From Kineococcus rubinsiae (GTDB taxonomy: Bacteria > Actinomycetota > Actinomycetes > Actinomycetales > Kineococcaceae): a stretch of DNA of 64,000 nt. A model generated the notes under the pieces. That model ran no database searches, had not been told where the DNA came from, and saw only the letters and a program-made list of their open reading frames with translations. Shown here one piece after another: positions 29,051 through 31,704 of this stretch. Location: assembly GCF_011839805.1 (NCBI RefSeq), contig NZ_VWPY01000001.1, positions 186,001-250,000 on the forward strand, written 5' to 3'. A program made the translations under genes and the position numbers. Numbering within the stretch: position 1 is the first letter of the stretch; each line of letters starts with the position of its first letter.

Positions 29051-29431
29051 GTGGACCTCCCCGTCGTCATCCCGCTCACCCTGCTCGCCCTCGGGGTCAG
29101 CGCCCTGGGGACCCTGGTGCGGCCGCGGCTGGACGCGGTGGTGGTGACGGTGCTGCTCGCGGCCGTCTGGGCCCGCGTGAACTCCCCCGTCGAGGGCGCG
29201 ATCCTGCACACCTTCTCCGCCGACCGGGGCTTCACGGTCGCCGACCTCGTGTCGGTCGCGGGCCTCGCGGTCGCGGGGCTGGGCCTGCTGCGGCTGCTGC
29301 TGCGCTGGGGGCGGGCGTCAGCCGGCCCGGACCATCACGGACAGGGCCCGCGCGAGCAGGGCCGCCACGAGCAGGGCCGGCCGGTCGTCCGCGCCGCGGA
29401 GCCGCCCGTCCGGCCTCACCAGGGGCCGTAG
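29051..29431 (+). CDS. Small membrane protein of unknown function
   Basis: 126 residues from a GTG. Two membrane segments are clear (about 4-40, broken by a basic R-P-R-L-D turn, and 62-88). The tail from residue 92 is hydrophilic and rich in His, Gln, Gly and Arg, with repeated E-Q-G-R-H-E-Q-G-R. Codon third positions are almost all G or C through the membrane part, as in real genes here. Its last 16 bases overlap the end of the DUF2516 gene on the other strand. Not recognised. Confidence 0.7.
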
Positions 29432-29760
29432 GGGCCCTGGTGGCGCTCGTCGCGGCGGGGGCCGCCGCGGCCCTTGAACTGGCGCACGGCGGGACGCACG
29501 TCGGCCAGGTACACGCCGGCCGCGACGACGCCGATGATCGACAGGAAGTTCGGCACGCCGCCGCCCACGAAGACGAAGCAGAGCGCCGTGGCCACCGCGA
29601 CGATCGCCACCCAGAACGTCTTGGTGCGCTTGCCGGCCGCCACGTAGGCGTCGGGCTTGTGCCGCACCGCGTCCACGAGGGCGAAGAGGGTCACGGCGAA
29701 GGCCCCCATGGACAGGACCAGCAGGACACCGCTCTGCACACCACCGATGAGGGACGTCAC
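29416..29760 (-). CDS. DUF2516 family membrane protein
   Basis: 114 residues, three membrane segments (about 8-30, 45-66 and 68-86), with A-D-V-R-P-A-V-R after the last, then a Gly/Arg/Pro-rich cytosolic tail. The pattern F-A-L-V-D-A-V-R-H-K-P-D-A-Y-V-A-A-G-K is typical of DUF2516, a conserved actinobacterial family without known function. The 3' end overlaps the convergent gene by 16 bases. Its upstream neighbour on the same strand is the RsiG-like gene. Confidence 0.85.
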   Translation of the reverse strand: MTSLIGGVQSGVLLVLSMGAFAVTLFALVDAVRHKPDAYVAAGKRTKTFWVAIVAVATALCFVFVGGGVPNFLSIIGVVAAGVYLADVRPAVRQFKGRGGPRRDERHQGPYGPW

Positions 29761-29845: not shown

Positions 29846-30427
29846 TCAGCGCTGCGAGGCGCGCAGGACCTCGTCGACGTCGACGACGCCCTCGCGGTAG
29901 CGGCGGCTGATCTCGTCGGTGCAGGCGTCCATGACGACCTGCACGCGGTGGCGGTCGGTGGAGAGCTCCTGCTCCAGCTCCACCAGCCGGTCGCGGGCCG
30001 CGGCGAGCTGGGCGTCGTCCATGCCGGCGACGTCGGACATCCGCGGGTCGGACACGGCCGCCTCGGCGCGGCGGCGGTGCTCGCCCACCCGGCTCGGCTC
30101 CACGGCGGTGTAGCGGCCGGAGCCGTGGTCGCTGCGGCGGGGGTCGGCCAGGATGTCGGTCAGCGAGGCGACGAGCTCGGCGTCCGTGCGGGCCGCGGGC
30201 ACGTCGACCGCGCCGTCGGCGCCGGCGCGGCGCTGGGTCTCGGCGCCGAGCAGGTCCATGCGGCCCTGCACGAGGCGGCGCGCGTAGGAGAGGTCGGCCT
30301 CCTCCTGCTCGGCGACGTTGCGGCGCTCGCGCAGGTCCTCCAGCGACACCTCGGTCAGGCCGTCGAGGAACTCCGGGGCCAGCACGTGGTCGAGCGCCCG
30401 GCGCCCGCCCTCCTGGTAACCGCTCAC
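29846..30427 (-). CDS. rsiG: RsiG-like c-di-GMP-binding anti-sigma factor
   Basis: 193 residues. The GTG at 30427 is chosen because GGAGG lies about ten bases upstream; a longer frame to 30520 exists. RsiG of Streptomyces binds c-di-GMP through two copies of E-x3-S-x2-R-x3-Q-x3-D on an antiparallel helical pair. Both copies are exact here: E43-S47-R50-Q54-D58 and E152-S156-R159-Q163-D167. The stretch before the first copy (L-A-P-E-F-L-D-G-L) also resembles RsiG. In Streptomyces, RsiG loaded with c-di-GMP sequesters the FliA-class sigma WhiG. I infer the same switch here, perhaps acting on a motility sigma; no sigma gene is in the window. Confidence 0.85.
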   Translation of the reverse strand: MSGYQEGGRRALDHVLAPEFLDGLTEVSLEDLRERRNVAEQEEADLSYARRLVQGRMDLLGAETQRRAGADGAVDVPAARTDAELVASLTDILADPRRSDHGSGRYTAVEPSRVGEHRRRAEAAVSDPRMSDVAGMDDAQLAAARDRLVELEQELSTDRHRVQVVMDACTDEISRRYREGVVDVDEVLRASQR

Positions 30428-30567
30428 GATCCCCGCCTCCAGCCGTCCTCGTGCGGCGCCGGCCTCATCGCTGAGCGCGAGGAGGCGCTGACGCTGCGTC
30501 CACCGCCGAGTATGGCGCACGCGGGCGGCCGGCGAGCGGTTCCCGCGCCCCGCGGGGCGTCAGGGCC

Positions 30568-31704
30568 TCACGGGGCGACGACGACCTCCTGCGCGGCGGC
30601 GATGCGGCGCTGGGCCACGGGCCCCGGCTGGTGGGCCTCGGCGACGCCCGCGGACCCCGCCAGCACGACGAGCGGGGCGTCGACGGGCAGCGACCGCTTG
30701 ACCAGCGCCAGCGCCACCGGGCCGAGCTCGTGGTGGCGGGCCGCGGTCGTCACGGACCCGATCCGCTTGTCGTCCAGCACGACGTCGTCGCCGTGCGCGG
30801 GCAGGTCGTGCCCGGAGCCGTCGAGGTGCAGGACGACCAGGCGCCGCGGCGGCCGGCCCAGGTTGTGCACCTTGGCCACCGTCTCCTGACCGCGGTAGCA
30901 GCCCTTGTGCAGGTGCACGGCCGTGCGCAGCCAGTCCACCTCATGGGGGATGGAGCGCTGGTCGGTCTCGAAGCCGAGCCGGGGCCGCCAGGCCTCGACG
31001 CGCAGCGCCTCGCTCGCCCAGGTGCCGGCGAGGCGGCGCCCGGCGACGCGCTCCGCGAGCTCCGCGCGCGGCACGAGGACCTCGCGCCAGGCCCGGCCGG
31101 TGCCGGGGTGCTCCAGGGTCGAGACGGCGGAGTAGCCCGCGGTGTCCGCGCTGCCGCCCTCGGCCAGCGGCACCGCGCCCGGCCACGGGTCGACCCAGAC
31201 GGGCCCGCCCGCGGCCGTCGTGTCGCGGCTGGGCTCGCCGAGCACGGCCCACTCGGCGGTGACGTCGGCGACCTCGACGCGCAGCATGAAGCGCATGCGC
31301 TCGAGGAAGGCGACGAGACCGGCCTGCACCCCGGGCTCGACGGTGATCCAGGTGGCCTCGCCGTCGTCGACGAGGTGCAGGTCGTGCTCGATGCGGCCCT
31401 GCGGGCTGAGGACCAGCGTCTCGGTGGCGCGGCCGGGCGCGAGGCCCGTGAGCAGCTGCGACGTGATGCTGTTCAGCCAGCTCAGGCGGTCGGGGCCGCT
31501 GACGCGGACGACCCCGCGGTGGGAGAGGTCGGCCACGGCCGTGCCCGCGACGAGCGCGCGCTGCTCCCCCACCGGGTCGCCGTAGTGCCAGGCCACCCCG
31601 GAGTCGCGGCCGTCGGCCGCGACCGCCCCGGGCGCGGACAGCAGCGGCGAGGCGGGCGTGGCGGGCCCGCCCGGGCCGGTGGTGGACTCGACGGTGGTGC
31701 TCAC
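30568..31704 (-). CDS. ygfZ: YgfZ/GcvT-like folate-binding protein (Fe-S cluster repair)
   Basis: 378 residues. The family signature K267-G-C269-Y-R-G-Q-E274 is intact, including the Cys needed for function in E. coli YgfZ. The fold is that of the glycine cleavage T-protein: L-S-W-L-N-S-I-T-S-Q near residue 75 and R-P-R-L-G-F-E-T-D-Q-R-S-I-P-H-E before the signature. It uses tetrahydrofolate to help synthesise or repair iron-sulfur clusters. The GTG overlaps the stop of the Fur-family gene; the fur-ygfZ pair links it to metal or redox control. Confidence 0.92.
   Translation of the reverse strand: MSTTVESTTGPGGPATPASPLLSAPGAVAADGRDSGVAWHYGDPVGEQRALVAGTAVADLSHRGVVRVSGPDRLSWLNSITSQLLTGLAPGRATETLVLSPQGRIEHDLHLVDDGEATWITVEPGVQAGLVAFLERMRFMLRVEVADVTAEWAVLGEPSRDTTAAGGPVWVDPWPGAVPLAEGGSADTAGYSAVSTLEHPGTGRAWREVLVPRAELAERVAGRRLAGTWASEALRVEAWRPRLGFETDQRSIPHEVDWLRTAVHLHKGCYRGQETVAKVHNLGRPPRRLVVLHLDGSGHDLPAHGDDVVLDDKRIGSVTTAARHHELGPVALALVKRSLPVDAPLVVLAGSAGVAEAHQPGPVAQRRIAAAQEVVVAP

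Follow-up and report, generated by a model that had tools for sequence, protein, structure and literature searches.

RsiG is known as a protein that restrains the sigma factor WhiG via c-di-GMP, and residues K57, G61 and R62 of WhiG were reported as the c-di-GMP contacts in the S. venezuelae complex (PMC8325347). RsiG outside Streptomyces has already been published, as 135 homologues (PMC8325347); the main text of that report, whose homologue list sits in the supplement, contains no occurrence of "Kineococcus". Among the literature titles and abstract openings listed for queries that never paired the two words, none reported RsiG in Kineococcus. A Streptomyces phosphodiesterase was also reported to displace RsiG through binding of WhiG (PMC13232838). 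WhiI of Streptomyces, a NarL/FixJ-type regulator, was described as activated by WhiG from a single WhiG promoter and as being without the pocket lysine and one of two adjacent aspartates (PMC4125116); according to a 2013 review, simple motile actinobacteria that possess WhiG do not have WhiI (PMC4255298). The genome paper of Kineococcus radiotolerans reported no FlgM homologue and left the regulation of FliA unexplained (PMC2587704).

The locus described here lies in a window of 64,000 nucleotides, the whole stretch of DNA that was analysed, corresponding to C1:186001-250000 of a 4.88 Mb genome (G000). C-numbers denote contigs, G-numbers genomes and L-numbers individual loci or sites. The gene, its motifs and its neighbours are as follows.

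29846..30427, minus strand: rsiG, twin-motif anti-sigma factor of 193 aa with a GTG start at 30427 (PF22802, 6pfj, AF2)
30254..30301, minus strand: c-di-GMP motif 1, residues 43-58 (EADLSYARRLVQGRMD), exact motif within AF2 helix 29-67
29927..29974, minus strand: c-di-GMP motif 2, residues 152-167 (EQELSTDRHRVQVVMD), exact motif within AF2 helix 138-178
29416..29760, minus strand: DUF2516 gene, a neighbour given as context with no function claimed (PF10724, 101 bits)
30568..31704, minus strand: YgfZ/CAF17-like gene, a neighbour given as context from gene order (TIGR03317, 99 bits on the longer open reading frame to 31890; start set by the gene caller)

The preliminary description had called this gene an RsiG homologue with two complete c-di-GMP motifs standing beside DUF2516, and each of these points held. 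The protein matched the Pfam model PF22802 'RsiG' in two stretches, scoring 85 bits where the cut-off is 27, and its best sequence match in the PDB was S. venezuelae RsiG (6pfj, E 3.7e-23, residues 19-188); these matches lie far above chance level. The motif E-x3-S-x2-R-x3-Q-x3-D was exact in both copies, so that the two occurrences of E-x3-S-x2-R-x3-[Q/H]-x3-D that mark a twin-motif RsiG are present in this genome. In an alignment of 30 RsiGs, E43, S47, R50 and D58 of motif 1 and R159 of motif 2 were invariant, and E152, S156 and Q163 were conserved in at least 90% of the sequences. An alternative, longer in-frame open reading frame begins at 30520; conservation among close relatives set in at about the 30427 start.

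An AF2 prediction with the 30 aligned RsiGs as input gave two long helices (29-67 and 138-178) bearing the motifs, with a mean pLDDT of 75. When this model was searched with Foldseek, the sole matches at E<=0.001 were four S. venezuelae RsiG chains (6pfv/6pfj), with TM scores of 0.70-0.73 by target length and 0.58-0.60 by query length and an rmsd of about 5 A. The predicted fold is thus that of an antiparallel coiled coil carrying the motifs. Family, PDB sequence match and predicted fold concur that 29846-30427 on the minus strand encodes RsiG. A profile search of the whole genome revealed no second RsiG.

The protein shared 94% identity with its counterpart in Kineococcus siccus and 68% with the one in K. 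xinjiangensis, values by which the organism is probably a Kineococcus, and DUF2516 adjoins RsiG in both. Genes for YgfZ, DUF2516 and Dtd recur around RsiG in several relatives, a gene order that favors vertical descent; the position of DUF2516, as part of this conserved order, carries little functional information. Elsewhere in the genome, 37-46% G+C stretches on contigs C10, C11, C12, C19, C20, C21 and C115 stand out from an otherwise G+C-rich sequence and are probably contamination; C110 resembles them, as judged by matched letters only. The genome also carries 61 GGDEF matches in 4.9 Mb, which fits the excess reported by a 2023 study in which zoospore formers had the most GGDEF domains (PMC10746217); neither RsiG nor WhiG occurs in the main text of that study (PMC10746217).

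The preliminary description had also noted that the window held no sigma gene, and had looked to the rest of the genome for a partner of the FliA/WhiG class. Indeed, none of the ten FliA/WhiG-family matches found by profile search of the genome fell inside the window, and two of the ten were strong sigmas, on contigs C93 and C69. The C93 sigma passed the WhiG equivalog model NF004935 (437.7 bits, cut-off 343); its gene is preceded by a XerC-type recombinase gene (TIGR02224, 303.7 bits, under the cut-off of 335). The C69 sigma stayed under the cut-off of NF004935 (135.3 bits) and of TIGR02479 (180.7 bits, cut-off 189.6), and adjoins flagellin and genes reading as flgN and flgK. In the alignment to 6pfj, K, G and R of the C93 sigma fell exactly on positions 57, 61 and 62, and the C69 sigma had none of these residues, with G, N and E in their place. 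By sequence, then, the C93 sigma is a WhiG orthologue with a complete predicted set of c-di-GMP contacts. Since the triad is present on the C93 sigma and absent from the C69 sigma, RsiG should gate WhiG rather than the flagellar sigma directly.

The contact residues were then compared in 131 of 148 listed sigmas from the order, the other 17 being 12 WhiG-class sigmas from two genera and 5 of the FliA class. The lysine was kept in 44 of the 70 WhiG-class sequences (43 KGR and 1 KAR; one of the 70 was truncated), and K or R of the triad occurred in 0 of the 61 FliA-class sigmas. The two classes stood apart on a midpoint-rooted tree, with supports of 0.76 and 1.0. RsiG exceeded its cut-off in 45 of the 297 genomes of the order: 44 of the 82 that carry a WhiG-class sigma, a single one (G129) of the 8 that have FliA but no WhiG, and 0 of the 207 that have neither. 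Nearly all K-keeping WhiGs (42 of 44) came from genomes with RsiG above the cut-off, as did 1 of the 25 that had lost the lysine (G088, with a match without motif). The K-keepers, together with the truncated sequence, formed one clade (support 0.515), and the correspondence between K and RsiG is therefore close to a single event, so that p-values calculated for it are not to be read literally. Two genomes, G092 and G040, kept the triad with no RsiG detected, which counts against strict pairing.

Several RsiG-like proteins departed from the twin-motif form. In genus g24, the RsiGs read (L296 of G129 and L298 of G043) were without either motif, and the three WhiGs read keep K-x3-G-R, which likewise counts against a strict rule; the motif-less protein is possibly a c-di-GMP-independent anti-sigma factor. 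Twelve weak RsiG matches in families f9 and f10 (L279-L290) lay in motif-less open reading frames, several with WWRRL-type helices, and the WhiG lysine was lost in all 10 that were examined among the 12 genomes concerned. Genome G001 has three RsiG-like genes (labels L292, L293, L294 and L295), of which the twin-motif copy (C1:418869-419321 of that genome) borders what by eye reads as a cluster of flagellar genes, with fliA some 8 kb away; RsiG may have been recruited to flagella there.

Candidate promoters were sought in the same genome. The textbook flagellar consensus had no exact match; with up to two mismatches it gave 59 matches against 27 in the control, and both one-mismatch matches lay on the low-G+C contigs C20 and C115 (37-38% G+C around), so this consensus was discarded. 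A sigma-28-type pattern, TCAA-N15/16-GCCGATNA, was derived by eye from the near matches and was found 11 times in the genome against 0 for the reversed control. Because the pattern was derived from this genome, its proper test is in relatives. In 11 relatives it matched 102 times against 4 for the reversed pattern, and these matches yielded 83 distinct sites after 17 were left out and 2 identical copies merged. The sites examined were 2 of 6 for G064, 2 of 10 for G092, 3 of 4 for G032 and 3 of 7 for G014, so that per-genome target counts are lower bounds.

By the gene caller, 75 of the 83 sites were intergenic, and 68 were both intergenic and followed by a start codon within 250 bp, as compared with 4.5%, 3.1% and 5.0% of random positions. 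At these 68 sites, predicted -35 and -10 boxes at fixed spacing thus stand 5' of genes, as in WhiG/FliA-type promoters. The spacer sequences varied and both boxes were constant. At 25 of the 68 (for example L329, L332 and L361) the box ended 7-9 bp before the start codon, a distance as expected of leaderless messages and pointing to such messages for PggH, EAL and 80-aa protein genes.

A looser form of the pattern matched 282 of 297 genomes, many of them without a FliA/WhiG-type sigma, and is thus not specific; raw genome-wide counts were rejected as evidence for this reason. Among 30 single control sites in other genomes, two had a start called in the following 250 bp, and both genomes (G004 and G023) carry RsiG and WhiG. 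The control set included two more WhiG genomes, G040 and G016, and neither showed such a start; nor did any of the 26 sites from genomes that have no WhiG-class sigma, where the gene caller is weaker. That caller had G+C-rich relatives as its training set and performs poorly on controls of low G+C: it placed 14 of the 30 between genes, and open frames of at least 120 codons cover 29 of the 30.

The 11 sites of this genome include one in the 214-bp gap between pilC and a type IV pilin gene, 85 bp 5' of the latter, three 5' of GGDEF genes and two 5' of chemoreceptor genes. One further site (L385) precedes a marginal signal-peptidase match, one (L080) lies within a gene, and two (L084 and L086) are not followed by a start codon in the next 250 bp. 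Across the family, a 192-aa LuxR-type regulator gene followed sites in at least 10 of 12 genomes, and a homologue of PggH, reported as a pGpG-specific phosphodiesterase (PMC10294637), in at least 7 of 12 (E 8e-124 to PDB 7d62 for the one tested); no exact site was seen 5' of pggH in G000. EAL-type genes (EAL, 91 bits for one tested), a PilT-type ATPase gene (TIGR01420, 480.9 bits for one tested) and a gene for an 80-aa 'BRCT-like' protein, whose only match was a DEDDh exonuclease model below cut-off, each followed sites in at least 4 family genomes. A pilin gene followed the site in G000 and G148. Other genes after sites were those for a PilM-like protein, CheB, chemoreceptors, GGDEF proteins and flagellin, with PilM and flagellin named by eye. 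In a second family, a GGDEF-EAL gene also followed such a site.

The LuxR-type regulator comprises GerE and receiver domains. Its receiver pocket, positioned by eye, keeps the phosphorylation-site aspartate, but AD stands where the acidic pair would be and T (S in G023) replaces the lysine; the lysine and one acidic residue are therefore lost, as in WhiI. DUF3000 adjoined the gene in 11 of 11 loci, an exonuclease gene came next in 10 of these 11, once with another gene in between, and hemE was seen in 4. The order exonuclease-regulator-DUF3000-hemE appears to agree with that of the Streptomyces whiI locus. A 60%-identical counterpart in the second family (G023) also adjoined DUF3000 and an exonuclease gene and carried the promoter motif. 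The pocket losses, the sigma-28-type promoter motif and the locus likeness suggest that the regulator is probably WhiI or close kin, although the 2013 review counts against this (PMC4255298). Its membership in a motility island was rejected, since the gene lies between the exonuclease gene and DUF3000/hemE, 35-45 kb from fliA in G078, G106 and G120. This position and the WhiI-type pocket make reading of these promoters by WhiG more likely.

We consider it probable that RsiG, armed by c-di-GMP, sequesters the C93 WhiG, and that release of WhiG turns on WhiI-like, pilus, chemoreceptor, GGDEF/EAL and PggH genes while FliA escapes. At high c-di-GMP, the coiled coil of RsiG would hold a c-di-GMP dimer with one motif per helix, and WhiG would be bound with its K57, G61 and R62 completing the c-di-GMP site. 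A drop in c-di-GMP would free WhiG to transcribe from sigma-28-type promoters (TCAAS-N14/15-GCCGATSA), with the WhiI-like regulator, the type IV pilus, chemoreceptors, GGDEF and EAL proteins and the PggH homologue as its output. Release could reinforce itself because the EAL enzymes would remove c-di-GMP, and PggH its product pGpG; the GGDEF targets could act oppositely, as a brake. The outcome would be a sessile-to-motile or cell-to-zoospore switch, and the flagellar FliA, having no contact residues, would escape the RsiG gate. The first half of this mechanism, in which c-di-GMP arms RsiG against WhiG, is borrowed from Streptomyces on grounds of homology; the targets and the feedback we infer.

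The preliminary description had suggested c-di-GMP-gated control of a FliA/WhiG-class sigma, perhaps for motility. The first part was supported by the WhiG partner with its predicted contacts. Motility control in its simplest form, through the C69 sigma with G, N and E, was not supported. The predicted outputs, which the switch most likely controls in this Kineococcus-like soil bacterium, are type IV pili and chemotaxis together with a WhiI-like regulator and the turnover of c-di-GMP. Flagella may nonetheless be affected, given that this promoter motif also occurs at flagellin in two relatives (G032 and G078).

That flagellin finding, together with close variants (CCTCAGG...CCGATG) upstream of flagellin and flgN in G000, also suits a different assignment, in which WhiG is still bound and gated by RsiG, yet FliA does most of the reading at the pilus, chemotaxis and c-di-GMP promoters, leaving WhiG a narrower set such as the WhiI-like gene. 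Both sigmas may share a promoter class, and an attempt to separate FliA-type from WhiG-type promoters by sequence failed because sure flagellar sites were few and the boxes overlap. However, the most widespread target resembles WhiI, which WhiG activates in Streptomyces, and in Rubrobacter, genes for type IV pili and for DGC/PDE enzymes were reported to have predicted WhiG promoters (PMC8325347); we therefore consider predominant reading by FliA unlikely. Direct gating of the flagellar FliA by RsiG would suit the absence of a FlgM homologue from K. radiotolerans, where FliA regulation was left open (PMC2587704), and the second twin-motif RsiG of G001 near fliA. Against it stand the absence of K or R of the triad from every FliA-class sigma examined and the single RsiG among the eight FliA-only genomes (G129, an assembly of about 580 contigs), a protein without motifs. 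Direct action on FliA was dropped because the triad residues are absent from the C69 and FliA-class sigmas, and such gating seems highly improbable.

There is scarcely any chance, in our judgment, that the sites are chance matches or some other conserved intergenic element, with no real regulon behind them. The pattern was derived by eye from one genome, and once loosened it turns up commonly where these sigmas are absent; on the other side, 68 of the 83 sites in relatives precede genes against 3-5% of random positions, the boxes are constant while the spacers vary, and in 25 of the 68 a start codon comes 7-9 bp after the box. The single-site controls argue in the same direction, the 2 of 30 with a start being in RsiG and WhiG genomes and 0 of 26 in genomes without a WhiG-class sigma, where gene calling was weaker. 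Gating of WhiG by RsiG, with WhiG reading these promoters, is thus the preferred explanation.

A wider proposal is offered tentatively, as somewhat more apt to fail than to hold in full: the RsiG-WhiG-WhiI core that serves sporulation in Streptomyces would, in the family of Kineococcus and in one or more further families of the order, gate a motile (zoospore-like) programme by c-di-GMP and drive pili, chemoreceptors and a partly leaderless c-di-GMP-removal route (EAL and pGpG hydrolase), forming a self-reinforcing commitment switch beside a sister flagellar sigma-28 without the c-di-GMP site. These results bear on sigma-28 gene control in motile actinobacteria that have no FlgM, and the promoters and residues named here make the c-di-GMP link testable.

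What is new here is the extended predicted regulon for RsiG-WhiG; the kind of protein itself is known. The locus resembles Streptomyces in its twin-motif RsiG, the same predicted fold, the K57, G61 and R62 of WhiG and the WhiI-like target. Streptomyces is non-motile and its switch serves sporulation (PMC8325347), whereas in this genome WhiG has a distinct flagellar sigma beside it, and pili, chemotaxis and c-di-GMP turnover are among the predicted targets. Unicellular Rubrobacter radiotolerans, with its (RsiG)2-(c-di-GMP)2-WhiG complex (7lq4), is comparable in that WhiG-type promoters were reported there for type IV pilus genes and for DGC/PDE genes (PMC8325347). The RsiG of Rubrobacter, which carries a single motif, acts as a homodimer, whereas RsiG here has two motifs on one chain, and the set predicted here is extended by chemoreceptors, a WhiI-like regulator and a homologue of the pGpG hydrolase. 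The zoospores of Actinoplanes missouriensis offer a further likeness, with WhiG-like sigmas reported to control flagella and type IV pili in the motile stage (PMC8325347); there WhiG is present and RsiG was reported absent (PMC8325347), whereas here both are present.
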